From the NCBI RefSeq assembly GCF_008808095.1, contig NZ_CP023396.1, forward strand, positions 744,001 to 808,000: a stretch of DNA of 64,000 bases. The letters run 5' to 3'. This document shows, in pieces, positions 9,904-35,345 of this stretch. Position 1 is the first letter of the stretch; each line of letters starts with the position of its first letter. Under the pieces are notes generated by a model. It saw only the letters and a program-made list of their open reading frames with translations, was not told where the DNA came from and did no database searches. Source of the stretch: Pseudoalteromonas ruthenica (GTDB lineage Bacteria; Pseudomonadota; Gammaproteobacteria; Enterobacterales; Alteromonadaceae). A program made the translations under genes and the position numbers.

Positions 9904-12900
9904 TGGCCGCACCTGAATTTGTCCATCTGCGCGTTCACAGCGACTTTTCCATGGTTGATGGCTTGGCTAAAACCAAGCCTATTGTCAGTGCGGCGCAAGC
10001 ACAGCAGCTCAGCGCCTTAGCTATTACCGACCAAATGAACCTGTGTGGTCTGGTGCGTTTTTATGGTGCCGCCCATGGCGCTGGGATAAAACCCATTGTC
10101 GGCGCCGATATTTGGCTCAATAGCCCGGAGTTTCCCGATGAGCCTTGTCGTTTGGTGGTATTGGCTAAGAATAACGAAGGCTATAACAACCTCACCTTAC
10201 TGATTTCTAAAGCCTATTTGCGTGGTCATGTGATGCACCGCGCTATGGTTGACCGTCAGTGGTTGGCGGAGCACAGTGAGGGGCTAATTTTACTCAGTGG
10301 CGGCAAAGACGGTGACTTGGGCAAGGCACTGCTTAAGGGCAATGCTGGAGTGATTGAAGAGATCAGCCAGTTCTACCGCCAACATTTTGCCGGCAATTTC
10401 TACCTTGAATTAATGCGCACCGGGCGTGCTGATGAAGAAAGCTACTTACATTTGGCCGTTGAGCACGCGACAGCGCATCAACTGCCTGTGGTGGCAACCA
10501 ATGAAGTGGTGTTTCTTGAGCAGCAAGATTTCGAGCCCCATGAAATTCGTGTCGCCATCCACGACGGCTACACCTTAGAGGATAAGCGCCGACCGAAGCG
10601 CTTCTCCAGCGAACAGTATTTAAAAACCCCAGCGCAAATGGCCGAGCTATTCAGTGATATCCCTGAGGCGCTCGCCAATACCGTTGAAATCGCCAAGCGC
10701 TGTAACGTGACCGTTCAGCTAGGCACTTACTTTTTGCCAGATTATCCCACCGGTTCGCTGAAAATAGACGACTTCTTGGTTAAAGTCTCTCGTGAAGGTC
10801 TAGAAGAGCGGTTGCAATTCCTGTTTCCCGATGAGCAGGTACGCGCTGAGCGTCGTGGCGAATATGACGAGCGCCTGCAAATCGAGCTCGATGTTATTAA
10901 CCAGATGGGCTTCCCCGGTTACTTCTTAATCGTTATGGAATTCATCCAATGGTCCAAGGATAACAATATCCCAGTGGGCCCAGGACGTGGTTCCGGTGCC
11001 GGTTCACTGGTGGCGTATGCCCTGAAAATTACCGACTTAGACCCACTGCAATTCGATTTGCTATTCGAGCGCTTTTTGAACCCCGAGCGGGTCTCAATGC
11101 CGGATTTCGATGTCGACTTTTGTATGGACCGACGGGATGAGGTGATTGATCACGTTTCCAAATTATATGGTCGTGATGCAGTATCACAGATCATTACCTT
11201 TGGTACTATGGCCGCAAAGGCGGTGATCCGCGATGTAGGGCGGGTATTGGGCCATCCCTACGGGTTTGTTGACCGTATTTCCAAGTTGGTGCCTGGCGAC
11301 CCGGGTATGACCTTGGAAAAAGCCTTTGAGGTTGAGCCGCGACTGCCAGAGGCCTACGACGGCGATGAGGAAGTGCGCGATCTCATTGATATGTGCCGTA
11401 TTCTTGAAGGCTGTACGCGAAACGCCGGTAAGCACGCCGGCGGCGTGGTGATATCGCCGACTACCATCACTGATTTTGCGGCGCTGTATTGTGATGAAGA
11501 AGGCAAGTTCCCGGTCACGCAATTCGATAAAAATGACGTGGAAACCGCCGGCTTAGTGAAGTTTGACTTCCTCGGTCTGCGTACCTTGACCATCTTGCAA
11601 TGGGCACTGGATATGACCAACGAGCGCCTAGCCCGTGAAGGCAAGGAGCCGGTGGACATCAATGCCATTCCCCTTAACGACCGCGCCAGTATCGACCTGC
11701 TGTTACGGGCCGAAACCACAGCGGTCTTCCAGCTCGAATCGCGCGGGATGAAGGACCTTATCCGCCGCCTGAAACCGGACTGCTTTGAGGATATGATAGC
11801 CCTAGTGGCCTTATTCCGACCCGGTCCATTGCAATCGGGCATGGTTGATAACTTTATCGACCGTAAGCACGGACGTGAAGAAATCTCCTACCCAGATTCG
11901 CAGTATCAGCATGACAGCTTGAAACCGATTTTGGAGCCCACTTACGGGGTTATCCTTTATCAAGAGCAGGTCATGCAGATTGCTCAGGTACTCGCCGGTT
12001 ACTCACTCGGTGGCGCAGATTTGCTACGTCGAGCCATGGGTAAGAAAAAGCCAGAAGAGATGGCAAAGCAGCGTTCAACCTTTGCTGAAGGGGCGCAAAG
12101 TCAGGGAATTGACAGCGAATTGGCGATGAAAATCTTTGACTTGGTGGAAAAATTCGCTGGGTACGGATTTAACAAATCGCACTCTGCGGCCTACGCCTTG
12201 GTGTCTTACCAAACACTGTGGATGAAAACTCATTACCCTGCCGAATTTATGGCGGCGGTAATGTCGGCGGATATGGATAACACCGATAAAATCGTGACCT
12301 TGGTTGATGAGTGCGAGAATATGAAGCTCGCCTTGTTGCCACCGGATGTTAATGCCGGTCTCTACAAGTTTACGGTGAATCGCCAAGGTGAGATTGTGTA
12401 CGGCATCGGCGCCATCAAAGGCGTGGGTGAAGGACCGGTTGAAGCCATTCTCAGTGCTCGCGAGCAGGATGGTCCGTTTAAAGATCTCTTTGATTTTTGT
12501 GCACGGGTGGATTTAAAACGCCTAAATAAACGGGTGATTGAAAAGCTCATTATGTCGGGGGCCATGGATAAGCTTGGCCCAGACCAAGTACAAGGTGGAC
12601 GTGCTATTTTAATGGCCTCCCTGCCTGAAGCGATTAAATCAGCCGAGCAGCACAACAAGGCCGAGCAATTAGGCCAAGGCGATATGTTTGGGCTCTTGGC
12701 TACCGAACCCGAGGAAGTCAAACAAGCCTTTAAGCGAGTGCCTTATTTTACCGATAACCAATGGTTGGATGGCGAGCGCGAAACGCTCGGGCTGTTTTTA
12801 ACTGGCCATCCCATTAACCAATATCGCAGTGAGCTTAAACATTACACCAGCGGCAAGTTGGTGGATTTAGTGCCCACAGAGCGTGATGTGCAAACCACAG

Positions 12901-17099: not shown

Positions 17100-19067
17100 A
17101 TGCAACAGCTGTTTATTGAATTGATGGGTCTATTACTCAGTGCGGTGATCTTAGTGTGGATGTTTAAACGCCTTGGATTGCCGCCCATCTTAGCGTACTT
17201 AGCCACAGGATTGTTGGCCGGACCGCATGGATTTGCCTGGCTTGCCAATGGCCATGAAATGCATGGTATCGCTGAGCTTGGCATTGTCTTTTTACTATTC
17301 AGTTTGGGCCTCGAATTCTCCCTGCCACGCTTGATTGCCATGCGTAATATCGTGTTTGGTGTTGGCTTACTGCAAGTGGTGCTCACTTCTGCGGTGTTTT
17401 TCTTGTTGTTGTGGGGTTTTGCGTTTGACGCGTTGAGCGCGTTTGCCATCGCAACGCTAATGGCGCTGTCCTCTACGGCGGTAGTGGTTAAATGCTTGAA
17501 GGACACCGGGCAGCTGCAGAAACGGCGCGGTCAACTCGCTGTTGGGGTGTTGCTGTTCCAAGATTTAGCCGTGGTACCGCTGCTTATTACCATCCCGTTA
17601 CTGGCCAGTGATACTGAGCAATCATTAACCTATAGTTTGGCAATGGCTTTGGCTAAAGGGGCCGTTGTGTGCACCTTGCTGTGGGCCATCGGTAAATGGT
17701 GTTTGCCACGGATCTTCAATGAAGTGGCGCGAATGCGTAATGAAGAGCTGTTTGTATTGACCACTTTATTGGTGACGTTATTTGCCGGTGGGCTAACTTA
17801 CTGGTTCGGGTTATCCATGGCTTTAGGGGCTTTTTTAGCGGGAATGATGTTGGGTGAAAGCCAGTATCGGCACCAACTTGAAAGTGATATTCGGCCGTTC
17901 CGGGACATCCTTATGGGGCTCTTTTTTGTCACCGTGGGGATGCAGTTAGACCTGGCCTATGTATTAACGCATGCCCATATTATTTTTGCCGCGTTAGCGG
18001 TCTTGATGCTCAGTAAACTGGTGTTACTGGCTGGTATTGCGCAACTGATGGGAGAGCGCAAAAGCGATGCTTTAAGTGCAGGCTTGATGCTCTGTCAAAT
18101 GGGGGAGTTTGGCTTTGTATTGGTGGCTTTAGCTGGGAACCAGGGAATTTTTGCCGGTGAGTTGGCGTCGTTTCTCATCGCCTTAGGGGTGTTTTCCATG
18201 GCCATTACTCCGTATTTAATAGAGCACTCGCCTAAGTGGGTACATCATCTTTTTCGCGCCAGTACAGAAGCCCCCGAACGCATTGAGTGTGTTGATGAAA
18301 GCCTCAGTGAGCATGTGATAATTTGTGGCTACGGGCGAGTTGGACAAAATATTGGGCGCTTTCTTTCCAGTGAGGCGTTGCCTTTTGTTGCCATTGAACT
18401 GGACCCTTACCTCGTGCAACAAGGAAGAAACTCCGGTTACCATGCCATGTTTGGCGATGTCACGCAAAAAAGCATTCTTGAGCGCGCAGGAACAGCACAG
18501 GCGCGTTTGGTGGTGATTACCTTCACTGATCTTAGCAAGGTACAAATGGTCGCCGAGGTAGTGAAACAAGTCGCGCCGCAGGTGAATATCCTCGCGCGCA
18601 TGCCCGATGATGCCCATCTTGATGAGTTAAAAGAAAGTGGCGTGTCAGAGGTCGTGCCTGAGTCGTTAGAAGCGAGCCTGATGTTGTCGTCTCATGTACT
18701 ATTTATGAGCGGGGTGCCGATGAAACGCATTATTCGCCGGGTTAGCCAAGAGCGAGAAAACCGTTACTCCTTATTGCACAGTTATTATATTAGTGATGAG
18801 GCGCCACATCGCGATGAAAACACCGAGCGTTTAGAGTACTTGCATGTGTTTGCTTTGGCAGATAACGCCTATGCCGTGGGTAAAACCATCGCCGAGCTCA
18901 ACTTGCAAGCGCGGCGTGTAAGTATTGCCGCGTTGCGCCGTCAAGGACGTGAGATAGAAGCGCCCAGTATTGAAACCAGTCTACAGGGGCATGACGTGCT
19001 GGTATTAAAGGGTAAACCACGGCGAGTAGAGCGTTGCGAGCGCTTTTTACTCAATGGCGGCAGTTAA
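17100..19067 (+). CDS. CPA2 family K+/H+ antiporter (KefB/KefC-like) with TrkA domains
   Basis: 655-residue membrane transporter. Residues 1-385 form the Na+/H+ exchanger fold with about 12 helices, including GLPPILAYLATGLLAGPHG and the conserved VLLFQDLAVVPLL. A TrkA-N Rossmann domain follows (HVIICGYGRVGQNIGRFL near 402), then a TrkA-C domain to the end. Such proteins gate K+ efflux in response to nucleotides or glutathione adducts. A ribosome site (AAGGAG) precedes the ATG. Kef-like activity is known for the family, but glutathione gating cannot be assigned from sequence. Confidence 0.9.
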   Translation: MQQLFIELMGLLLSAVILVWMFKRLGLPPILAYLATGLLAGPHGFAWLANGHEMHGIAELGIVFLLFSLGLEFSLPRLIAMRNIVFGVGLLQVVLTSAVFFLLLWGFAFDALSAFAIATLMALSSTAVVVKCLKDTGQLQKRRGQLAVGVLLFQDLAVVPLLITIPLLASDTEQSLTYSLAMALAKGAVVCTLLWAIGKWCLPRIFNEVARMRNEELFVLTTLLVTLFAGGLTYWFGLSMALGAFLAGMMLGESQYRHQLESDIRPFRDILMGLFFVTVGMQLDLAYVLTHAHIIFAALAVLMLSKLVLLAGIAQLMGERKSDALSAGLMLCQMGEFGFVLVALAGNQGIFAGELASFLIALGVFSMAITPYLIEHSPKWVHHLFRASTEAPERIECVDESLSEHVIICGYGRVGQNIGRFLSSEALPFVAIELDPYLVQQGRNSGYHAMFGDVTQKSILERAGTAQARLVVITFTDLSKVQMVAEVVKQVAPQVNILARMPDDAHLDELKESGVSEVVPESLEASLMLSSHVLFMSGVPMKRIIRRVSQERENRYSLLHSYYISDEAPHRDENTERLEYLHVFALADNAYAVGKTIAELNLQARRVSIAALRRQGREIEAPSIETSLQGHDVLVLKGKPRRVERCERFLLNGGS

Positions 19068-25831: not shown

Positions 25832-25941
25832 GGTAGCCTTATTGGTCCTCTCGCAACACTAGCAGGTGAATCTGGTCAGGCCCGGAAGGGAGCAGCCACA
25901 GCGTGTGACGTGTGTGCCGAGATGTGGCTGGTAAGGCTGCC
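25832..25941 (+). ncRNA. ffs: 4.5S signal recognition particle RNA
   Basis: The core GGTCAGGCCCGGAAGGGAGC and the partner strand CAGC...GTGTGTGCCGAGATG reproduce the Ffh-binding asymmetric and symmetric loops of bacterial SRP RNA. The ends GGTAGCCTTA and TAAGGCTGCC pair over ten positions, fixing the gene at about 110 nt. It binds Ffh and targets membrane proteins co-translationally. No terminator follows within the 16 bases before the mobile element. A hairpin at 35351-35390, on the far side of the element, may be its original terminator. Confidence 0.96.
25878..25910 (+). other. Protospacer-like target in ffs matched by the nearby CRISPR spacer
   Basis: This part of ffs matches the spacer at 26247-26279 without gaps at 21 of 33 positions (about 8 expected by chance). 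Every one of the 12 differences is A or T in the spacer against G or C in ffs. Taking a 32-nt spacer, the bases just 5' of the match read CA, which fits the relaxed CN-type PAM of I-F3 CASTs. The distal end lies 47 bp before the mobile element begins. Confidence 0.8.
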
Positions 25942-25957: not shown

Positions 25958-26006
25958 TGTTGTTTGAAGTTAAAGTTGACATAAATTTGAACAATAAGTT
26001 GTCATA
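25958..26006 (+). repeat. ffs-proximal transposon end with two TnsB-like sites
   Basis: The end starts TGTTGTTTG, with the TGT terminus usual for Tn7-like elements. Site A is 25967-25983 (AAGTTAAAGTTGACATA) and site B is 25990-26006 (AACAATAAGTTGTCATA), exactly 23 bp apart. The shared core is AAGTTG-CATA. The same 23-bp spacing recurs between two sites of the far end. Confidence 0.8.
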
Positions 26007-26218
26007 GCCAAATTTTAGTCAGTGCGCTAGAAAGCAGCTATTATCGACGCAAAACCAAGTACTCTAGAGTTAAAACCCTTTTTAAATTCGCCAGTCAAAA
26101 GATCAAGGCGACCTGTCTCTTAGAGTCGGCATTAGAGTTCGGTGCTTGTTTCCACTTCGAATATTCCCCAGCGATTGTCGCATTCGAGGCTTAGCCTCTA
26201 GGCTTTAAATAAGACTAT

Positions 26219-26307
26219 GTGAACTGCCGCGTAGGCAGCTGAAATTAGGCTAGGAAGTAATCAATCACAACATGTTATTTTTAACTGCTGAAAAGGCAGG
26301 GCTAGAC
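26219..26307 (+). CRISPR. Single-spacer type I-F3-like mini-array with ffs-matching guide
   Basis: Repeat 1 (26219-26246) begins GTGAACTGCCGCGTAGGCAG and matches my recollection of the Tn6677 CAST repeat at about 23 of 28 positions. It folds as CTGCC-GCGTA-GGCAG. Repeat 2 (26280-26307) is divergent but keeps AACTGC and AGGCAG and a five-pair hairpin (CTGCT-GAAAA-GGCAG), like the atypical repeats that flank homing spacers in I-F3 arrays. The repeat period is 61, leaving a 32-33 nt spacer. A terminator follows at once. The region 26020-26218 has no gene and would be the leader; it contains a 13-bp dyad GAGGCTTAGCCTC (26186-26198). Confidence 0.82.
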
Positions 26308-26314
26308 ATCTTAC

Positions 26315-26340
26315 ACCCCAGCAAATACTGGGGTCTTTTC
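26315..26340 (+). terminator. Terminator just after the mini-array
   Basis: Stem ACCCCAG / CTGGGGT with loop CAAATA followed by CTTTTC. It begins eight bases after repeat 2 and points the same way as the array, so the guide RNA appears to be its own short transcription unit. It is also correctly placed to insulate the array from the convergent integrase gene. The bases 26341-26471 hold no other gene that I can see. Confidence 0.8.
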
Positions 26341-26471
26341 TGTTATTCAAAACGGTAATCTGAGGTATATCTAACCGTATTGAGTTAGGTTAGGAGCTTT
26401 CCTATAAATAGTGTTCGAATATTTAGATTGGCAATGTTATCACTAACAGCCGTTACCTGCCCCAAAACAAG

Positions 26472-27443
26472 CTAGAAAATTTTGCTCAAAGGACTAACAA
26501 CACCGTTTGCGCCTTGCTGTAAAACATGCGTATATATTTGCGTTGTCTTCACATCGGAATGACCCAGTTGAGCTTGCACGGTTCTAATATCTGCACCACT
26601 TTGTAGTAAATGAGTAGCAAATGAATGTCTAAAAGTGTGAGGCGTTATAGGTTTTATTATTTGTGCTTTTTCGGCGGCCTCTTTAACCGCTTTACGTACA
26701 CCTGTTTGATGAAAATGATGTCGGCGAATCTCGCCAGTTTCAGGATCAGCATTTAACTTATATGAGGGAAATAGATACTGCCAAGCAATTGACTTATTGG
26801 CGCTAGGATATTTTCTTGCTAGTGCCTTTAGCATCCATACACCAGCATATTGTTCATTCTGGGAATCTAATTTTAAGTATTCATCAGCCTGAGCTATTTG
26901 ATTTCTTAGCAAAGGTATAAGTTCTGTGGCGAGTGTAACCACCCGATGTTTATTCCCTTTACCATTCCAGATCCGAATGCACTTGTAGTCAAAGTCAATA
27001 TCCTGAACTCGTAGTTGAACAGCTTCCATTACACGTAAGCCGCTACCATACATTAAACCTGAAATTAAATAATATCGTTTACTTAAAAACGACATGAGGA
27101 GTTTAACCTCCTCGGGGGTCATAACAATTGGTAACTTAGATTGGCGCTTGCTTCTAACAAACGTTAGATTCGGACACAATTCCTGTTTAATTATTTGCTT
27201 ATACAAAAAAGATAACGCATTTAACGCTGTCGCTTGTGTTTTAGATGACACATTCCGTTTAAGTACAAGGTAGTCGAGATATTCGACAACCTCGTTATTG
27301 CCCATTGAAGCTGGGTGACGTTTATCATGATAATGAATATAGGAAGAAATCAACTTAAGATATGTATCAACGGTTCTGAGTGAATATTGCTTAGTCAACA
27401 TTAACTCGGCGATGTGATTTAAAAATGGTGAACTAGTTCTCAT
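26472..27443 (-). CDS. intI: Integron integrase IntI
   Basis: 323-residue tyrosine recombinase. It begins MRTSSPFLNHIAELM, then SLRTVDTYLKLISSYIHYH typical of IntI. Catalytic residues are visible in GSGLRVMEAVQLR (Arg), TPHTFRHSFATHLLQSGADIRT (His-x-x-Arg) and LGHSDVKTTQIYTHV (His and nucleophile Tyr). The integron-specific insert around ALARKYPSANKSIAWQYLFPS is present. A longer frame from 27506 would translate the LexA box and promoter; ATG at 27443 has TTGGAGC upstream and is preferred. It faces away from the cassettes with attI between, the standard integron layout. The gene looks intact. Confidence 0.93.
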   Translation of the reverse strand: MRTSSPFLNHIAELMLTKQYSLRTVDTYLKLISSYIHYHDKRHPASMGNNEVVEYLDYLVLKRNVSSKTQATALNALSFLYKQIIKQELCPNLTFVRSKRQSKLPIVMTPEEVKLLMSFLSKRYYLISGLMYGSGLRVMEAVQLRVQDIDFDYKCIRIWNGKGNKHRVVTLATELIPLLRNQIAQADEYLKLDSQNEQYAGVWMLKALARKYPSANKSIAWQYLFPSYKLNADPETGEIRRHHFHQTGVRKAVKEAAEKAQIIKPITPHTFRHSFATHLLQSGADIRTVQAQLGHSDVKTTQIYTHVLQQGANGVVSPLSKIF

Positions 27444-27464
27444 TGAGCTAGCTCCAATAAGTAC

Positions 27465-27506
27465 TTGTATATATGTACAGTATTGTTGTGTTTCTCCTAT
27501 AGTCAA
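27465..27506 (-). promoter_or_regulatory. intI promoter overlapped by a LexA box
   Basis: Minus strand: TTGACT (27501-27506), 18-base spacer, TACTGT (27477-27482). The LexA-type site CTGTACATATATACAA (27465-27480), which differs from CTGT-N8-ACAG at one base, overlaps the -10 element. This is the arrangement seen in SOS-controlled integron integrases, so cassette shuffling is likely induced by DNA damage. Confidence 0.85.
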
Positions 27507-27507
27507 G

Positions 27508-27533
27508 AAAACGACCCATTGGGTCGTTTTTTT
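27508..27533 (+). terminator. Hairpin terminator between intI promoter and attI
   Basis: AAAACGACCCA pairs perfectly with TGGGTCGTTTT and is followed by a T run on the plus strand. It would block transcription entering the cassettes from the integrase side. The same 11 bases AAAACGACCCA recur at 27628-27638 within the attI region. Confidence 0.75.
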
Positions 27534-27599
27534 CTTATAGCAATGTAACGTAACTTCAATGCTGGCAAGTACTTCCTAAATTTGCTATCAATGGTCTAA

Positions 27600-27663
27600 G
27601 GACTAAAACGAGACAGGTTGCGGCAGAAAAACGACCCAATCGCTCGATATTAAATTGTTAGAT
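27600..27663 (+). other. Probable attI recombination site
   Basis: The first cassette junction is GTTAGAT (27657-27663), a match to the GTTRRRY core. The 5' limit of attI is a guess. Position between intI and the first cassette gene is as expected. I could not fix a Pc promoter here; several weak hexamer pairs exist and none is convincing. Confidence 0.65.
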
Positions 27664-27681
27664 TCCCTATAGAGATCTCAT

Positions 27682-29958
27682 ATGGAACCAAAAGATTTAC
27701 ACGGATTTGCTTCTGATAGGCCGATCACAAAAGTAGAAGAGGACCTGTTGGGACGGTCAGGCTTTTCCACGGACTTGGCTAATGCAATGGCAAGTTGGCA
27801 TGGAAATGATAGCTTAGTAGTAGCTCTGCATGGTGACTGGGGATCAGGGAAGTCTTCTATTAAAAACATGGCCCTATCTCGACTAGCGGAAATAACAGAG
27901 AAAAAACCTGATGTAATTGAATTTTCCCCATGGGAATGGGCAGCTCAAGAAAAAATAACGGCCTCCTTTTTTCAAGAAGTATCAAAGTCAATAGGTCACA
28001 CAGATAAAAGCAAGTCTGGGAAAAAGTTAGCGGCAACTCTTAAAAAATATGGTCGGTATCTTAATACGGGTGAAACAGTAGTATCAGGTTTTTCAGCGGC
28101 TCTCCCTACACTGTTTGTATTCGCAACCCTTATAGGGGTTGGCGGTAATTTTTCAAACGAGGCTTGGGTAAGCAACGTTAGCACTACTATTCTACTGGTT
28201 TTGGGTGGATGGGCTGCAATATTAAAGTGGGGCAAAGGCTTCCTTGACAATTTGAGTGGAAATGTTGAGGCGACTGCCAAGGAAAAAGAGCAGAGTTTGA
28301 GTGATATAAGACAGGAATTGACAGGATTATTACTCGAAAGGAAATCTCCATTGATCGTTGTAATGGATGATTTGGATAGGCTGACATCATCCCAATTAAG
28401 GATGGTTTTTCAGCTTATAAAAGCAAACTTGGAATTTCCGAATGTGGTCTTCCTTCTTCTATTTCAGCGGGATCTGGTAGAAGATAAAATGAATGACGGG
28501 GCGCAACAGGGTCGAGACTATTTAGAAAAAATAATTCAGGTGCCTTTTGACATACCTCAAATAGAAACTACACGACTGCATAACTTATTGTTCAATCAGT
28601 TAGATAAAATTATCGAGCAAGACAAATCAGCTGCAAATATGTTTGATTCGGGACGGTGGGGGAACCTATTTCACGGGGCTCTAAGCGCATATTTTGACAA
28701 TCTGCGAAGCGTTTATAGATACACCTCCACTCTATCATTCCATTTTACACTACTTAAAGGCAAAAGTGCTTTTGAGGTCAACCCAGTGGATTTAATGGCA
28801 ATTGAGTGCCTAAGAGTTTTTGAACCTGATGTTTACAAGGAAATCGCACGCGCGAAAGAGATATTCACTAAAAATGGTTCCGATAGATATGGAAGAAGCC
28901 AGGAATCTGCTGCTGCCCTAATTAATAGCATATTGGATAAGGCTTCTGAGAATAAGCGAGATGCTGTAAAGGAAATGGTAGAGCAACTATTTCCAACAAT
29001 AGAATGGGCTTTGGGAGGCTCACACTATTCTGGAGATTATTCTAGTACATGGTTAAGAGAGATGCGTGTTTGTCACCCCTCTAACTTTGATAAATACTTT
29101 CAATTTTCAATTCCAAGTGGGGAACTCTCAAACTCAGACCTGCAGGAAATGCTTAGTCTAACTGCTGATTCTGACAGGCTTTCTTCATTTATCTTGTCCC
29201 TCAAAGAACGTGGCATTCTAAAAAATGCTCTTTCACAGTTTGAATCATTCACAGATGAAGTGCCTCTTGAAAATGGCAGTGCGTATATTAAGGGAGTTTT
29301 AGATATTGGTGACCAAATTGATCATGAATCAATTGGGTTTACGATGTTTAGCTCGAATACACATGCTGTAAGGCTTGTTGTTTGGTTTCTACGGCGCATT
29401 GACGATCTGGAGGAGCGAGGCAAGCTGCTTTTAGAATGCTTCAAAGCGTCAAAAGGTCTCTCTATTGTCGAACACATATTACAAGGCGATGAAAATCGCA
29501 GAGAGAAAGCTGATGCTGACCAGATACTACGAGATGAGGAGTTTGAGCTGCTTAAAGCCGAGTTTGTAAAAAAGCTGGATGAAATGTCTGAAAATGCGCC
29601 TAGCGAACTACTTTCTAATGAACACTTGGTTTCTTTTTTGTATAGATGGAAGCGCTGGGGAGATGAGAATAAAGTTATAAACTGGTTAAAGTTGCAGACT
29701 CAGACTGCCGAAGGGTGTTTGACCTTGTTAAAAAGGTTTGCAAGTAAATCTTCATCTCAGGCAATGGGAGATTACTTAGTTAAAATTACTACGTACATAA
29801 AGCTTGAGAGCATTGAAAACTTTCTAGAGATAGCACGAATTCAAGAAAAAGTAAGGGATATTGATGAAGACAAGGTCGATTCCCAAGCGAAAGTAGCATT
29901 GAAGGCTTTTCATGATGCACTTGAAAAGAGAGAAAAAGGAATCGAAGACGATTGGTAA
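27682..29958 (+). CDS. KAP-family P-loop NTPase (first integron cassette)
   Basis: 758 residues. Walker A GDWGSGKSSIKN is near residue 51 and Walker B PLIVVMDDLDRL near 227. Between them two hydrophobic helices (about 133-152 and 163-180) interrupt the P-loop domain, the hallmark of KAP NTPases, which are membrane-linked. The C-terminal 450 residues are mostly helical with no domain I recognise. Known members include phage-exclusion protein PifA of F plasmid, so an anti-phage role is plausible but is inference. At 2.3 kb it is far larger than a usual cassette gene (0.3-1 kb). Low GC compared with the core genes suggests transfer. It is followed within 10 bases by attC1. Confidence 0.85.
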   Translation: MEPKDLHGFASDRPITKVEEDLLGRSGFSTDLANAMASWHGNDSLVVALHGDWGSGKSSIKNMALSRLAEITEKKPDVIEFSPWEWAAQEKITASFFQEVSKSIGHTDKSKSGKKLAATLKKYGRYLNTGETVVSGFSAALPTLFVFATLIGVGGNFSNEAWVSNVSTTILLVLGGWAAILKWGKGFLDNLSGNVEATAKEKEQSLSDIRQELTGLLLERKSPLIVVMDDLDRLTSSQLRMVFQLIKANLEFPNVVFLLLFQRDLVEDKMNDGAQQGRDYLEKIIQVPFDIPQIETTRLHNLLFNQLDKIIEQDKSAANMFDSGRWGNLFHGALSAYFDNLRSVYRYTSTLSFHFTLLKGKSAFEVNPVDLMAIECLRVFEPDVYKEIARAKEIFTKNGSDRYGRSQESAAALINSILDKASENKRDAVKEMVEQLFPTIEWALGGSHYSGDYSSTWLREMRVCHPSNFDKYFQFSIPSGELSNSDLQEMLSLTADSDRLSSFILSLKERGILKNALSQFESFTDEVPLENGSAYIKGVLDIGDQIDHESIGFTMFSSNTHAVRLVVWFLRRIDDLEERGKLLLECFKASKGLSIVEHILQGDENRREKADADQILRDEEFELLKAEFVKKLDEMSENAPSELLSNEHLVSFLYRWKRWGDENKVINWLKLQTQTAEGCLTLLKRFASKSSSQAMGDYLVKITTYIKLESIENFLEIARIQEKVRDIDEDKVDSQAKVALKAFHDALEKREKGIEDDW

Positions 29959-29961
29959 TGA

Positions 29962-30033
29962 ATCTAACAAAGCGCTGCTGTCGGACAACTTTTCCGCTGC
30001 GCTCCAAAGTTGCCGCAGAGCTCGGCGTTAGTT
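29962..30033 (+). repeat. attC site 1 (after KAP cassette)
   Basis: R'' ATCTAAC and terminal GCGTTAG bracket an imperfect palindrome (GCTGCTGTCGGACAACTTTT ... AAAGTTGCCGCAGAG). It is nearly the same sequence as attC6 at 35025-35096, about 70 bp. Confidence 0.9.
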
Positions 30034-30088
30034 GCAGGACTTACCCAAAAAAAGTAGACACCTTCTATAGTTAGAAAAGAGGTGTCTC

Positions 30089-30400
30089 ATGACTAGAAAG
30101 AAAAGAACCCTGGCCTATACCGAAGATTTTCGTCGCGAAGCGGTTCGAAGGGCGGAGCAACCCGGAAATACCAACAAATCCGTCGCCGAAGAGCTGGGGA
30201 TCAGCGCCCAGCAAATTTATAACTGGCGTAGGCAATTCAACCGTCTTTCCGACAAGCAATTTAATACCGTTCAAGGCGTTGATTACTCGAAACATGAAAG
30301 TGAGGAACTGCGCCGCCTCAAGCGCGAGCTACACGACCTGAAAGAGGAAAATGAATTCTTAAAAAAGGCAGCCGCGTACTTTGCGAAAAGCCAGGAGTAA
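30089..30400 (+). CDS. IS element A OrfA (IS3-type helix-turn-helix protein)
   Basis: 103 residues with an HTH (NKSVAEELGISAQQIYNWRRQF) and a C-terminal leucine-zipper-like coiled coil (EELRRLKRELHDLKEENEFLKKAAAYF). A run AAAAAAG at 30361-30367 is the probable programmed -1 frameshift site that fuses OrfA to OrfB into the active transposase. Confidence 0.92.
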   Translation: MTRKKRTLAYTEDFRREAVRRAEQPGNTNKSVAEELGISAQQIYNWRRQFNRLSDKQFNTVQGVDYSKHESEELRRLKRELHDLKEENEFLKKAAAYFAKSQE

Positions 30401-30568
30401 AGTACGCGCTGATTGCGCAGTATGTAGGCCAGTTCCGGATCACCTTGATGTGCAGAGCATTGAAAGTCTCACGCTCGGGTTTTTATCGTTACCTGAGCCT
30501 GTCCACTTCCCATAAACTGAGACAGACATAATTAGAGTTTTCTGTAATGATTAATGCAGGAGACGACT

Positions 30569-30838
30569 ATGAAAAAATCACGCTATACAGAATCTCAGAT
30601 CATCGCAGTATTAAAAGAAGTCGATGCGGGTAGGAAGGTTGAGGAAGTGTGCCGTCAGCACGGTATCAGTAGTGCAACCTATTACAACTGGAAGTCCAAA
30701 TACGGTGGGATGGAAGCCTCTGACGTCAAACGGTTGAAGGAGCTTGAAGAGGAAAATGCCAAGCTTAAAAAGATGTTTGCAGATGTTAGTTTGGAAAATC
30801 ATGCGATTAAGGAGCTTTTCGCAAAAAAGGGTTGGTGA
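30569..30838 (+). CDS. IS element B OrfA
   Basis: 89 residues beginning MKKSRYTESQIIAVLKEVDAG, with HTH (VEEVCRQHGISSATYYNWKSKY) and a coiled coil. Start ATG at 30569 has AGGAG six bases upstream; an earlier ATG at 30554 lies within the leader. It overlaps OrfB, and GCAAAAAAGG near the end is a -1 frameshift site. Confidence 0.93.
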   Translation: MKKSRYTESQIIAVLKEVDAGRKVEEVCRQHGISSATYYNWKSKYGGMEASDVKRLKELEEENAKLKKMFADVSLENHAIKELFAKKGW

Positions 30839-31677
30839 CAGCGGATAAACGAGAATGCGTCAGCGTAATGGTTGGTGCGGGGCTAAGTATCGTAAGGGCT
30901 TGTCTGTTTGTTGGCATTGGCCGTTCGACCTTTTATCGCCCTGAACGAGACTGGCGTAAAGCAGATGCTGCTGTCATTGATGCTATCAATGCCGAGCTTG
31001 AGAAGTCGCCACGAGCAGGCTTCTGGAAGTGTTTTGGCCGAATGCGCTTCAAAGGCTTTCCCTTCAACCATAAGCGCGTTTATCGCGTGTATTGCCAGAT
31101 GGGGCTGAACCTAAAACGAAGAACGAAACGTGTGCTACCCAAGCGAATTGTTCAGCCCTTAGAAGTGCAGGAGCAAGCCAATCACCAATGGGCGCTCGAT
31201 TTTATGCATGACACATTGTATTGCGGTAAACGATTCAGAACGTTAAATGTGGTGGACGAAGGAACGCGAGAGTGCCTTGCAATTGAAGTGGATACCTCGT
31301 TGCCCGCTAGCCGTGTCGTACGCGTGTTAGAGCAGCTTAAGGCTGAGCGCGGATTACCGAATCAGCTGCGCGTAGATAATGGCCCAGAGTTAATATCGGC
31401 CACCCTGACTGATTGGTGCGAGGCCAATCACATTGAGCTGATGTATATCCAGCCTGGCAAGCCGCAGCAAAATGGCTTTGTTGAACGCTTTAACGGTTCA
31501 TTCCGCAGAGAGTTTCTTGATGCCTACTTGTTTGAGAATCTCAGCCAAGTGCGAGATATGGCTTGGTTCTGGCGATTGGATTATAACGAAGAAAGAACCC
31601 ATGAAAGTCTCGGAAACCTGCCACCGGCTGCTTACCGAGCAAAACTGGAAGATTCTAATTTAGAACTGTGTCATTAA
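30832..31677 (+). CDS. IS element B OrfB, DDE transposase
   Basis: 281 residues. DDE residues lie in HQWALDFMHDTL, LRVDNGPELIS and QNGFVERFNGSFRREF. Translated as an OrfAB fusion by frameshifting; the listed start is the frame's first possible codon and not necessarily used alone. Full length for the group, no internal stop. Confidence 0.93.
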   Translation: MVTADKRECVSVMVGAGLSIVRACLFVGIGRSTFYRPERDWRKADAAVIDAINAELEKSPRAGFWKCFGRMRFKGFPFNHKRVYRVYCQMGLNLKRRTKRVLPKRIVQPLEVQEQANHQWALDFMHDTLYCGKRFRTLNVVDEGTRECLAIEVDTSLPASRVVRVLEQLKAERGLPNQLRVDNGPELISATLTDWCEANHIELMYIQPGKPQQNGFVERFNGSFRREFLDAYLFENLSQVRDMAWFWRLDYNEERTHESLGNLPPAAYRAKLEDSNLELCH

Positions 31678-32498
31678 CGGGGAAGTGGACAAGCCGAAAG
31701 CCGAGCGATAAAGCACAGAAACATGCTGAGTTGGCCCATCATGTGAAAGAGGCTTATGAGGTCTTTAAGGCACGCTACGGCGCGCCCAGACTCACCTATG
31801 AACTCAATGCCAGCGGTGTTCGATGTAGCCTCAATACGGTCGCTAAAATTATGCAAGAGCTGGCTCTCAAGGCAAGAAATGGCAAGGCGTTTCGTTACAG
31901 TCGCAGCTGCTATTCAAACTCGAATGTAGAAGGGAATGTGCTTGCCCAGCAGTTCATCACAGAGCGTGCCAACAGGAAATGGGTATCAGATATCACTTAT
32001 ATCCGTGTTCGCGGCCAGTGGCTTTACCTGGCCGCTGTGATGGACCTGTTCTCAAGGGCGATTGTCGGTTGGGCATTAGACACGTCGATGACGGTCAAGC
32101 TGATTTCAGATGCTTTCAACATGGCACTGGCCCGCAGGGAGGTTAAACCAGGTTTGATGCTTCACTCAGATAGAGGCGTGCAGTACCGCGCGGTGGCCTA
32201 TCAGGATTTAGTGCGTTCATCAGGTGCGATAATCAGCATGAGCCGAAAGAGCAATTGCTGGGATAATGCGGTGATGGAATCCTTCTTCAGTCGTCTCAAA
32301 GTTGAGCTGATTTATGCCGAGATATTCCACTCGATACAACATGTTAAATCCTGTATGTTTGAATACATTGAAATATTTTATAACCGCAAACGACGTCACT
32401 CAGCGTTAGGCTATCTCAGCCCGCTGGAGTATGAACAACGGTTTGCGTAATAACCTGTCTACTTTTGATGGGGAAGACCATTGCCTCAAGGATGGTTC

Positions 32499-32828
32499 AT
32501 GTTTCAAACTCTGGTTATTTGCCTCTTTATTTTGTCTATCTTGGCATTCATAAAAAGTGTAAGTGTTTTCGTAGAAACATGGAAAGCTGAAGCACCAATG
32601 CATTGGCGAGAGTGGAACGAGCCAGAATTCATAGATCTTTACAGACAAATGTTCACATATCTGTGGCCTGTAATTTTCGGTAAAGCGTGTGAAGATGCAA
32701 ATTCCGACTTACTTGTTAAAAAGCGAAATGATATTAGGTTCACTTTAATTCTCGTTGTTTTATTGTTTATCGCTGGTACTGCTTTTAATGGTTTTTCCTT
32801 TGAAGTGTCACCTCGTTGGGTAAACTAA
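32499..32828 (+). CDS. Cassette 2 gene: small two-helix membrane protein
   Basis: 109 residues, unrecognised. Hydrophobic helices at about 3-25 and 83-100 flank a polar region (WKAEAPMHWREWNEPEFIDLYRQ). Start ATG at 32499 has AAGGA seven bases upstream; the frame also allows TTG at 32481. The cassette's original 5' junction is now separated from attC1 by IS element A, so any cassette promoter from the left is interrupted. Followed by attC2 six bases after its stop. Confidence 0.75.
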   Translation: MFQTLVICLFILSILAFIKSVSVFVETWKAEAPMHWREWNEPEFIDLYRQMFTYLWPVIFGKACEDANSDLLVKKRNDIRFTLILVVLLFIAGTAFNGFSFEVSPRWVN

Positions 32829-32833
32829 ACGGC

Positions 32834-32933
32834 AACTAACAAGTTACTCAAAAGGACGCAAAACGCTTGGCTTGCGCTCCTTCGTCGCTAATTTTAGCCA
32901 AGCATTAATGCGCCCATTAGTAAGGCGTTATGC
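32834..32933 (+). repeat. attC site 2
   Basis: About 100 bp ending GGCGTTATGC. The inner stem CGCTTGGCTTGCGC ... TTTTAGCCAAGC is shared almost exactly with attC5, forming one attC family. Confidence 0.88.
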
Positions 32934-32951
32934 GGTGTCAGAGTATTGCAC

Positions 32952-33389
32952 ATGGATTATGTGAATTATCATTTTGAAGAAACGTTGAAGCTTTTGGTGA
33001 TTCTGTCATTACCTGCAGAAAAGCAGATTGAAGCTTTTGGCTTTGGTAATACAGAAGAAGAAATTGCTATAGATTATGAGCAGCATTATAAAGAAAATGA
33101 GCTTAAATTTATTGAGCATGGCCTCATAACAAATGAGCAGGCGTCACTTCTAAGTAAGATTGATTCATTCTTTGAGGTCAGGAGTAACACAGATAATGAC
33201 GCGTTTTGGAGTGGTATTGAAAATCACTCGGACTGGGAAATTCTTCGAACAATGGCGTCTAATTCTTTGGGTGCTCTTGGCAAAAGTAATCTAGGTGTTT
33301 CAGTTAAAATCACCAATGAATACAGTAAAATTACAGGCGGTTTGGTAATTCAAAAAATAGTGGTTGATCTGGTTGAAAACAGCGCATAA
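32952..33389 (+). CDS. Cassette 3 gene: hypothetical protein
   Basis: 145 residues, acidic, predicted soluble, beginning MDYVNYHFEETLKLLVILSL. I do not recognise it; residues 70-130 read like a small helical protein, and size and placement resemble many orphan cassette products. TTG at 32946 is an alternative start. The stop overlaps the R'' box of attC3, as is common in cassettes. Confidence 0.75.
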   Translation: MDYVNYHFEETLKLLVILSLPAEKQIEAFGFGNTEEEIAIDYEQHYKENELKFIEHGLITNEQASLLSKIDSFFEVRSNTDNDAFWSGIENHSDWEILRTMASNSLGALGKSNLGVSVKITNEYSKITGGLVIQKIVVDLVENSA

Positions 33390-33492
33390 CAAACGGCTGC
33401 ATTTGACCGTCAACATTCCGTTAGTTTTTTATTGACGCTACGCTAACAAAAAACCAACTCCATATTTCCGGCAAATGAGCCGGGCGTTAGGT
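33384..33492 (+). repeat. attC site 3
   Basis: Begins GCATAACAAACGG and ends GGGCGTTAGGT, a perfect GTTRRRY core. The inner stem is TTAGTTTTTTATTGACG with TAACAAAAAACCAAC. About 109 bp. Confidence 0.88.
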
Positions 33493-33505
33493 AAAAGAGG
33501 TTTAA

Positions 33506-33847
33506 ATGGAATTAAGTTTTCAAACAGAATCCGTGGCTTTATTTTTTTTAGTACTTTTCTTATTAACGGTTTTGCCGGTAAAAATAGGTGCTACACTCTT
33601 TGGTGCTGAAAATAATGAATTTAAATATTGCGCTATTTCGGTGTTTATAGGCACTCTACTAGCTGTTGTTTGTTCAAAGTTAATTGGTGGGCTATCAGGT
33701 TTGCTTGCAAGCTACATAGCCGTTTCTTTTGTTTATTCAAGAGTTCTCGGCTTATCTTTATTGTGGTCTTTTCTTTTTACTTTCGGTGTTTTCCTTATTC
33801 AAGTAGCTATAGCCCAAGCCCTTACAAGGTTTGGTATTTTTACCTAA
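33506..33847 (+). CDS. Cassette 4 gene: small integral membrane protein
   Basis: 113 residues with three or four hydrophobic helices (about 8-30, 42-63, 66-82 and 85-108) and no recognised motif. ATG follows AGAGG by five bases. Such membrane proteins are frequent among sedentary integron cassettes. Stop overlaps attC4. Confidence 0.75.
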   Translation: MELSFQTESVALFFLVLFLLTVLPVKIGATLFGAENNEFKYCAISVFIGTLLAVVCSKLIGGLSGLLASYIAVSFVYSRVLGLSLLWSFLFTFGVFLIQVAIAQALTRFGIFT

Positions 33848-33943
33848 CAATGTTGTAAACGCGGACAAATAACAGTTGGCTTTGTTCGTGCGTCACAAAT
33901 TTTAGCCAACTATTATCAGCCGGTTACAACGGCGTTGTTATAC
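33842..33943 (+). repeat. attC site 4
   Basis: Starts ACCTAAC (perfect RYYYAAC) and ends CGTTGTTATAC. Outer arms AACAATGTTGTAAACG / GGTTACAACGGCGTTGTT pair imperfectly; inner stem AGTTGGCT / AGCCAACT is perfect. Confidence 0.86.
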
Positions 33944-33976
33944 GTTTCTCAAAATTGGTACCGAGGAAGTTAAAAT

Positions 33977-34201
33977 ATGAATTTGAAGCAATTTTTAGCT
34001 CTACCAGAAGAGCACTTTATAGATGCTGAGTCTGCAACTAAGTTAAATTTAGATCTATCAACTAAAACTATAGGCGATATTCCAACTGAAAAACGCGCAT
34101 TAGTTAGCGAATATCTCTTAAATGCTCTAAATATGAATTCTGTTGAAAGCAATATAAAACCAGCTCTTGATAATCTGTTAACTGAGTTACAAAATGTATA
34201 A
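33977..34201 (+). CDS. Cassette 5 gene: 74-residue hypothetical protein
   Basis: Small acidic protein beginning MNLKQFLALPEEHFIDAESATKL, probably helical, with no signal peptide or membrane segment. GAGGAAG lies about eight bases before the ATG. I do not recognise a family; no adjacent partner suggests a toxin-antitoxin pair. The stop is inside attC5. Confidence 0.72.
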   Translation: MNLKQFLALPEEHFIDAESATKLNLDLSTKTIGDIPTEKRALVSEYLLNALNMNSVESNIKPALDNLLTELQNV

Positions 34202-34296
34202 CAAAGCCATTATGGCAGGGACGCAAAACGCTTGGCTTGCGCTCATTCTTCGCTAATTTTAGCCAAGCATTTTTGCTCCCAATAGCGGCGTTATGT
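34196..34296 (+). repeat. attC site 5
   Basis: Starts GTATAAC and ends GCGGCGTTATGT. Shares the CGCAAAACGCTTGGCTTGCG core with attC2, though the cassettes they end are unrelated. Confidence 0.88.
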
Positions 34297-34310
34297 TTAA
34301 AGAGGCATGG

Positions 34311-35024
34311 ATGAGAATACTGTTGATAATTTTGACTATGTTCTACACATGTTTGAGCTGGTCTCAGAATCTCCCAGAGAATGCATCAAAAAATCCATTT
34401 GGAGGCGGTTGGAAGTGTGATCGGGGGTATTACAAATCTGGGCAGAAATGCTTGAAGGTTCAAGTCCCTGAAAATGCGAGTATTGATGTATATGGCAGTG
34501 GCTGGAAGTGCAATAGAGGCTTCAAAAGAGCGGGTAGCTCATGCAAGGCCATGACTGAGCAAGAATTCCAGAGACAAATGGAGCTTGAAAAAGCGGCTAT
34601 TGCCGAAATGCAACGCCGAAGAGCCCAAGGGGTGAGCGGTGATGACTGCGATACAGAGTACAAAACAAACGCTGAAGTTTGTGTTGAAATTACTGGGGGC
34701 GATATAGATTGTAACGAAAGCTATTCTGGTAATTATTATAATGATTGTGACGTTTCGCTTAACTATGAAGTAAGCACCGATTACAGCGGCGGTGCATATC
34801 TGGACGTTGAAGTCGAATGCACGGTTGAGATTGAATATAAGGGCAGAAACACTTATTCAACTCAATCAGACTCAAGTTATGAAGATGAGTCTCATGATTT
34901 ATATGCTCACGATAGTGGTAGGGAAACTCTTACTTTCAACTTCTCATTTGGGTCTTATCAAGAGATCACGAGCGCAAAAATAAGTAGTGCGGTGTGTGAA
35001 ATTGATAGCGTGGATATGTACTAA
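34311..35024 (+). CDS. Cassette 6 gene: secreted protein with paired Cys-rich repeats
   Basis: 237 residues. Signal peptide MRILLIILTMFYTCLSWSQ. Two tandem repeats follow, PENAS-x5-GGGWKCDRGYYKSGQKC and PENAS-x5-GSGWKCNRGFKRAGSSC, each with paired cysteines. A charged helix (about 85-108) and a Cys-containing C-terminal domain rich in Tyr, Ser and acidic residues come next. ATG at 34311 has AGAGG upstream; an in-frame ATG at 34293 lies in the attC5 core. The GW-C-GY-C repeat occurs in other bacterial secreted proteins of unknown role. It is the last cassette. Confidence 0.8.
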   Translation: MRILLIILTMFYTCLSWSQNLPENASKNPFGGGWKCDRGYYKSGQKCLKVQVPENASIDVYGSGWKCNRGFKRAGSSCKAMTEQEFQRQMELEKAAIAEMQRRRAQGVSGDDCDTEYKTNAEVCVEITGGDIDCNESYSGNYYNDCDVSLNYEVSTDYSGGAYLDVEVECTVEIEYKGRNTYSTQSDSSYEDESHDLYAHDSGRETLTFNFSFGSYQEITSAKISSAVCEIDSVDMY

Positions 35025-35096
35025 ACATAACAAGGCGCTGCTGTCGGAAAAATTTTTCGCTGCGCTCCAAATTTGCCGCAGAGCGCAGCGTTACCG
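35025..35096 (+). repeat. attC site 6 (last)
   Basis: Starts ACATAAC and ends GCAGCGTTACC. Nearly the same as attC1. No cassette gene follows; 35097-35240 has no ORF, only a G8 run near 35131. Confidence 0.88.
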
Positions 35097-35240
35097 AATA
35101 AATACTCTAACGTGTTTCTGTCCAAAAATGGGGGGGGTTGAAAGTCAGATTATTTAATTGGTTGTATGATGCACTAGCCGAACGACTGAAAATGCACAAA
35201 AGGGGCACGCGAGGGTCAATATCTGGAAAATAAGGAACTT

Positions 35241-35345
35241 TTTGTCAGCTTTTACTTCAAACTTATGTCAACTTATAATTCCATAAAATCCAGATACAGC
35301 CCGGAACAAGGGCTCGTACTATGTCAACTTATACTTCAAACAAGC
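35241..35345 (-). repeat. Distal transposon end with three TnsB-like sites
   Basis: Sites in inverted orientation: 35241-35257 (TTTGTCAGCTTTTACTT), 35264-35280 (TATGTCAACTTATAATT) and outermost 35320-35336 (TATGTCAACTTATACTT), the last followed by CAAACAAGC. The first two are 23 bp apart, the spacing of the ffs-proximal end; the third is 56 bp further out. Dense sites at one end and dispersed sites at the other is the Tn7 pattern. Confidence 0.8.

Follow-up and report, generated by a model that had tools for sequence, protein, structure and literature searches.

Within a 64,000-nucleotide stretch of the genome of Pseudoalteromonas ruthenica (4.12 Mb in 2 contigs), here called the window, two CRISPR-type repeats enclose a single spacer downstream of ffs, with no cas genes nearby. 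The locus raises the question of what a lone guide array does at such a place. The answer that we favour, with a probability of roughly 0.86, is that it belongs to an ffs-homing type I-F3b CRISPR-associated Tn7-like transposon (CAST) which has suffered an internal deletion and of which the guide, the ends and an integron cargo are left. A sequence-only reading had already taken the array for an I-F3 homing guide, and this is supported here; the bounds of the element, the deletion, the damaged far tip and the integron cargo lay beyond it. The attachment site and the array comprise the following features.

25840-25936, forward strand: attachment-site gene ffs, encoding the 4.5S RNA of the signal recognition particle (Rfam RF00169, 71.2 bits)
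25876-25877, forward strand: PAM, 5'-TC-3' (sequence; TC in 14 of 14 genomes compared)
25878-25910, forward strand: protospacer in ffs (identical to the guide at 21 of 33 positions)
26219-26246, forward strand: R1, the first (typical) I-F3 repeat, GTGAACTGCCGCGTAGGCAGCTGAAATT (sequence, relatives' arrays)
26247-26279, forward strand: homing guide against ffs, 33 nt (match to ffs, shuffles, relatives' guides)
26280-26307, forward strand: R2, the second (atypical) repeat, TTTAACTGCTGAAAAGGCAGGGCTAGAC (sequence, relatives' arrays)
26315-26334, forward strand: terminator-like stem, then a T-rich tail (3' of the array; 1 found against a mean of 0.5 in shuffles)

The two repeats around a 33-nt spacer can be read in the sequence as first described. 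R1 starts after a gap of 282 bp from ffs, and a genome-wide pattern search that allowed 3 mismatches gave no second copy of it. The gapless match to ffs was recomputed with the same count of 21 of 33. Its mismatches lie at positions 5, 6, 12, 13, 15, 18, 19, 24, 26, 30, 32 and 33; all 12 set A or T in the guide against G or C in ffs, and three of them (5, 19, 32) are U-G wobbles, as had been stated, and a terminator-like stem lies 3' of the array, where a terminator had been claimed. How far the match exceeds chance was answered in two ways: 1 of 20,000 shuffled spacers reached 21 against either strand of ffs, and 49 of the 63,806 33-mers of the window reached at least 21, 6 of them overlapping the spacer and 43 lying elsewhere. 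Taken alone, the ffs match is good, not overwhelming; the guides of the relatives settle it. Folding speaks against a neat RNA structure at 26219-26307: the 89-nt array as a whole does not outdo shuffled sequence (z -0.53; a fold of equal or lower energy in 53 of 200 shuffles), and R1 pairs with R2 in the lowest-energy fold. A promoter scan gave one weak match, at chance level.

Matches to the ffs-side end and the array were detected in 32 of 108 genus genomes (29 of 99 in an earlier run), and a scan of genome contigs with the guide pattern returned 20 stretches, 8 of them from Pseudoalteromonas. Of the matches that come with Cas7, the best eight share 78-89% identity with guide, repeats and terminator over 88-123 bp, R2 and terminator are 92% identical to G011, and by eye a stretch resembling the terminator follows most relatives' arrays. 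Among the 22 array loci examined the guide was cut out by pattern in 21 (G046 left out); the 14 genomes with their own ffs sequence were used for the guide-ffs comparison and the other 7 guides were excluded. The comparison of guides with ffs turned out in favour of the sequence-only reading: all 14 guides match the ffs of their own genome, at 21-26 of 33 positions and with a TC PAM each, the window count being the lowest. A TC PAM is given for 96.6% of ffs-homing I-F3 CASTs (PMC12774636, excerpt).

In guide pairing every sixth nucleotide is described as flipped out (PMC12774636, excerpt). For the 14 guides, which share descent so that the counts are not independent, mismatches were found at 61 of 70 flipped-out positions (6, 12, 18, 24 and 30) versus 69 of 392 positions elsewhere. 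Judged by these sequences, it is normal for guides of the ffs-homing I-F3 family to mismatch their target at each sixth position, and the clustering of the mismatches could serve as a simple sequence-only signature for orphan homing guides. Setting aside the flipped positions and the U-G wobbles leaves the window guide with 4 mismatches (13, 15, 26, 33), inside the range of 3-6 in the 14 genomes; by this measure its pairing is neither lost nor decayed. Changes of whole segments are reported as severe at 25-29 or 7-11 and mild at 13-17 and 19-23, and the last two positions matter (PMC12774636, excerpt). Segment 25-29 has one mismatch in the window guide and at least one in each of the other 13, and a mismatch at position 32 occurs only in the window, where it is a wobble, in G003 and in G017. 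Guide decay, suspected from C-to-T changes at 5, 19 and 32, was rejected, as the same bases recur in relatives: by eye, a second guide remnant of G011 (locus L022, upstream of 8959; one base shorter) shows T at 5, 19 and 30 and A at 26, while G045 and G054 share the T at 5 and G059 that at 19. On this comparison the changes at 5, 19, 26 and 30 look ancestral, not recent.

The array lies inside an element whose ends and remaining transposition gene were assigned as follows, with L024, the locus of genome G020, as reference.

25958-26006, forward strand: ffs-side (right) end, tip TGTTGTTTGAAG at 25958, TnsB-type sites 25961-25983 and 25984-26006 (inverted repeats I1-I3; with 3 mismatches allowed, chance predicts 0)
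26033-26218, forward strand: tnsA remnant of ~60 codons (residues 6 to ~67, L024 TnsA numbering), fused to R1 (tblastn to L024 TnsA, 64.7%, E 1e-22; translation)
35241-35342, reverse strand: far (left) end, TnsB-type sites 35241-35263, 35264-35286 and 35320-35342 (inverted repeats, motif search)
35343-35345, no strand: AGC in place of the far tip's terminal ACA, with no target-site duplication next to it (comparison with 8 elements)

A repeat search of the window delivered inverted-repeat arms at 25960-26004 and 35236-35343. With 3 mismatches allowed, the motif TGTTTGAAGTATAAGTTGACATA has 2 inverted sites in the window, where 100 shuffles gave none, and no further site in the genome at this threshold; at up to 6 mismatches there are 2 sites in the ffs-side end, 3 in the far end and none elsewhere in the window, where 0.1 were expected. 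In number of 23-bp units, the ffs-side end has one fewer than the homologous end in G011. Full elements of relatives carry the tip TGTTGTTTGAAG and a duplication of 5 bp, and from these the span of the window element was set to 25958-35345 (9,388 bp). In 29 relatives' loci examined (87 relatives with a match), no ffs beside an hmp-like gene was detected, so the insertion bounds are taken from the ends alone, no empty site of a close relative having been found. The spacing from protospacer to tip is 47 bp in the window and G011 and 50-51 bp in the seven others measured. Perfect 5-bp duplications flank 7 of 8 comparison elements, namely all four full ones (G020, G056, G015, G022) and three of four truncated ones (G008, G010, G011). 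The same seven have tips ending in ACA, which neither the first copy of G005 nor the window has. The flanks of the window element, CCCCT versus TCACT, agree at 3 of 5 positions; neither a perfect duplication nor an ACA far tip was found there.

The full plan of L024 runs from the end through tnsA, tnsB, tnsC, cargo, xre, tniQ, cas8/5, cas7, cas6, the array and further cargo to the far end. Its Pfam scores are 41 bits for the TnsA-like N-terminus, 35 for the Mu-transposase C-terminus, 96 for TniB (AAA), 59 for TniQ, 44 for Csy2 (in cas8/5), 223 for Csy3 and 84 for Csy4. The window element has retained only the tnsA fragment of this machinery; tnsB, tnsC, tniQ, cas8/5, cas7 and cas6 are absent from it. 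The fragment adjoins the ffs-side end in the same place as the start of tnsA in L024, has lost its start codon and contains two in-frame stops, and its tblastn alignment reaches 26230, a few bases inside R1. By eye, the stretch in front of R1 is a similar AT-rich leader in all 12 relatives printed (ten with cas genes, G045 and G081) and tnsA sequence in the window. The absence of cas genes nearby, already noted from the sequence, is confirmed for the element and would be accounted for by an internal deletion. The I-F3 homing-guide layout read from the array is now joined by both transposon ends, the 47-bp spacing, the TC PAM, the tnsA remnant and homologous guides beside full gene sets.

A hidden second I-F3 gene set was looked for in the whole genome by way of TniQ, Cas7, TnsB and Cas6, and was not found. 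No TniQ was found by a profile search whose model scores L024 TniQ at 58.7 bits, above its cut-off; no Csy3/Cas7 at E 1e-10; no TnsB, for which the same search has a match in 57 of 108 genus genomes; and no Csy4/Cas6. The negatives for TniQ, TnsB and Cas7 carry weight because the model and queries detect L024 TniQ and TnsB and Cas7 of many sister genomes. Across the 108 genus genomes, Cas7 reaches at least 53% in 19, the best match is 44-46% in 4 and 28-32% in 12, and TnsB reaches at least 53% over at least 450 residues in 22. Cas7 is absent at E 1e-10 from the window genome, G005, G006, G008, G010, G011, G045 and G081; among these eight, only G005 (24%) and G081 (30%) show a TnsB match. In G028, G050, G076 and G098, TnsB of 61-96% identity occurs with no Cas7 at E 1e-10, where partly deleted CASTs or assembly gaps are possible. 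An element of the same sublineage with machinery was detected neither in the 108 genus genomes (32 with a match) nor in 395 family genomes (11 with a match; 2 candidates scored per genome); a plasmid search gave no match, nor did viral contigs searched with one exact 19-mer. The closest element, in G011 (86%), is itself without machinery.

From the comparison with full elements, the following history can be proposed. An I-F3b CAST would have landed 47 bp beyond the protospacer in ffs, directed by the crRNA of the window array; in the manner described for the family (PMC11406308, excerpt), this crRNA would have been bound by Cascade and TniQ and have led the element to its site. Later, a single internal deletion would have placed the start of R1 right behind about residue 67 of tnsA, numbered as in L024, taking the rest of tnsA, tnsB, tnsC, tniQ, cas8/5, cas7, cas6 and the leader. 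What would remain is the present 9.4-kb element with both ends, the guide array and terminator, and the integron cargo. Since the genome searches gave no Cas6 or Cascade and the array has no leader, the guide is most likely silent, or at least useless, in the cell. The loss of the far tip's terminal ACA means that the element can most likely not be mobilised in trans, and with the target-site duplication also missing, the copy looks immobile even when helped.

Between the array and the far end the element carries an integron.

26472-27506, reverse strand: IntI, the integrase of the integron, an open frame of 344 aa (446 bits to NCBIfam TIGR02249, whose cut-off is 265; Pfam PF00589 145 bits)
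27682-29958, forward strand: first cassette gene, a KAP-family P-loop ATPase, PifA-like (Pfam PF07693 134 bits; best PADLOC match PifA, 285 bits, E 3e-85)
29950-30030, forward strand: attC-like site, core AAC...GTT (repeat family D1)
30037-32479, no strand: IS3-family insertions breaking the cassette array, orfs 30089-32450 (profile matches; inverted repeats I4, I5)
32854-32920, forward strand: attC-like site (repeat family D2)
33886-33930, forward strand: attC-like site, bounds approximate (repeat family D3)
34219-34285, forward strand: attC-like site (repeat family D2)
35013-35093, forward strand: attC-like site, the last before the far end (repeat family D1)

The TIGR02249 match identifies the integron integrase, and an attI site would be expected between 27507 and 27681. 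The putative cassette array consists of small open frames between the five attC-like repeats with AAC...GTT cores, as judged from the repeat families and by reading, and PifA, which the product of the first cassette resembles, acts in phage exclusion. The stretch 30037-32479 holds two IS3-family elements, one apparently nested inside the other. By eye, 26345-26464 is alike in G011, where it holds a small open frame, and is broken in the window where the integron starts. Usefulness of the cargo to the host may explain why the element has persisted. Machinery-less loci can hold defence-like cargo, here the PifA-like ATPase in the integron, and searches for cas and tns genes would miss them.

Other readings have to be weighed against that of a single deleted CAST. 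Chance hairpins with a chance ffs match would agree with the 43 window 33-mers that equal the match away from the spacer; this candidate was ruled out, and is next to negligible, given homologous repeats and guides beside cas genes in relatives, with all 14 compared matching ffs, and inverted ends that no shuffle reproduced. It is also very improbable that the host has domesticated the array as a guide or small RNA acting on ffs. The length of the guide is intact, and of the 22 genomes whose array loci were examined, three lack a Cas7 match (the window genome G000, G045 and G081). Yet the guide has the same sense as the 4.5S RNA, which rules out annealing between the two, the genome yielded no Csy4-type processing enzyme, the leader is gone and the array folds no better than shuffles.

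Two further readings concern movement and origin of the element itself. It might be a live non-autonomous CAST, a satellite that supplies its own homing guide and relies on an autonomous I-F3b CAST entering the cell to move it in trans. Its guide pairs with ffs as well as the guides of full elements, the machinery-less elements of G008, G010 and G011 have intact or near-intact tips with perfect duplications, and full CASTs are common in the genus, as seen from the 19 of 108 genomes with Cas7 of at least 53%. We nevertheless regard this as quite unlikely for the window copy, whose far tip reads AGC instead of ACA with no duplication, whose ffs-side end is one TnsB-type unit short of that in G011 and whose leader is lost; moreover, the tnsA breakpoints differ in G008, G010 and G011, so that no common junction shows movement after the deletion. 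As a less probable alternative, a larger deletion may have fused two ends from different tandem ffs insertions, which would make the 9.4-kb stretch a chimera. The missing target-site duplication fits with this, and tandem ffs insertions are known in the genus: G011 has two successive far ends (8829 and 10381 in L022) and G005 two tnsA remnants. However, the stretch after the array up to about 26464 is alike by eye in G011, and there a perfect duplication flanks the first element, so that at least the array and the ffs-side end belong together, and a residual duplication of 3 in 5 bases is compatible with decay. We keep to one deleted ffs-homing CAST; under either decay or two insertions, the window copy is unlikely to move now.

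Loci comparable to the window occur in several sister genomes. The machinery-less elements of G008 (L114), G010 (L115), G011 (L022) and G005 (L112) likewise combine an ffs-side end, a 5' tnsA fragment, cargo and a far end; together with the window genome, their tnsA fragments end at residues 43 to 110 of L024 TnsA. These four genomes have no Cas7 match and no TnsB of at least 53%, and in their examined loci no full guide array was found. Unlike the window, G008, G010 and G011 have kept duplications and tips. G011 also differs in having an R1/R2 hybrid repeat only, plus the second, shortened guide remnant. The hybrid is a single repeat at the expected array site (L022, 2209-2236), with the front half of R1 and the back half of R2, and the guide was probably lost there by recombination between the two repeats. 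The cargo of G011 resembles an efflux pump operon by eye. In G005, two tandem machinery-less ffs elements lie at 8580-13400 of L112; their tnsA fragments stop at residue 43 in one and 87 in the other, and the first element is followed by an integron integrase-like fragment of 36% identity.

The orphan-array loci of G045 (L042/L028) and G081 (L043/L026) resemble the window in a guide array beside ffs, in the lack of a genomic Cas7 match and in a locus that lacks tns and cas genes, except for a cas6 tail in G045; in contrast to the window, they have kept the leader, and the ffs-side end was not found. About 245 bp beside ffs in G081 (L043, ~18300-18760 and 10700-11410) are repeated at 96% just after a far end of the element, which looks as though part of an empty-site allele had taken the place of the machinery and the ffs-side end. 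An 87-aa gene stands next to the G045 array (L042, 18276-18539), with relatives beside the arrays of G081, G056, G015 and G026 (81-89%). Beside ffs in G006 (L113) and G088 (L117), decayed ffs-side ends are, by eye, followed by apparently the same gene, and what would be their duplications looks displaced by a single base. Fragments of TniQ, Xre and TnsC are present in L113 as well. A shared junction with different duplications, as possibly in L113 and L117, would show movement after the deletion.

At this point a broader conjecture may be mentioned, although we hold it to be improbable: the internally deleted ffs elements of Pseudoalteromonas could form a class of CAST satellites, which shed their machinery by deletions from the first half of tnsA and persist beside ffs, while autonomous I-F3b CASTs move copies with good tips, such as G008, G010 and G011, in trans. 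The satellite would then have its own address label in an orphan guide such as that of the window. In the literature searched, which may leave the subject to Petassi 2020 and Park 2023 as papers outside that search, no description of natural machinery-less CASTs was found. The same search, with the main CAST papers outside its scope, held neither a homing guide left in a machinery-less integron-bearing element nor a case of ffs elements without machinery recurring within a single genus, as they do here (G000, G005, G008, G010, G011; orphan arrays in G045 and G081). The window locus is a fossil with an intact-looking guide, informative rather than a new system. It shows the death or taming of a CAST, in which cargo, ends and address label remain at the attachment site and the machinery is deleted.

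Integrons as cargo are familiar from Tn7-like transposons, 10% of which carry an intact or partial one (PMC8649781, excerpt). The window shares this likeness and differs in that its host element is of the I-F3 type and has lost its transposition genes. Homing of I-F3b CASTs to ffs via atypical guides is already known (PMC11406308, excerpt). Unlike these CASTs, the window has a truncated tnsA, with tnsBC, tniQ, all cas genes and the leader deleted, a damaged far tip and no target-site duplication. What it shares with them is the ffs site, the TC PAM and insertion about 50 bp downstream, a mismatched guide set between a typical and an atypical repeat, Tn7-like ends, and tnsA beside the ffs-side end (PMC11406308, PMC12774636, excerpts).
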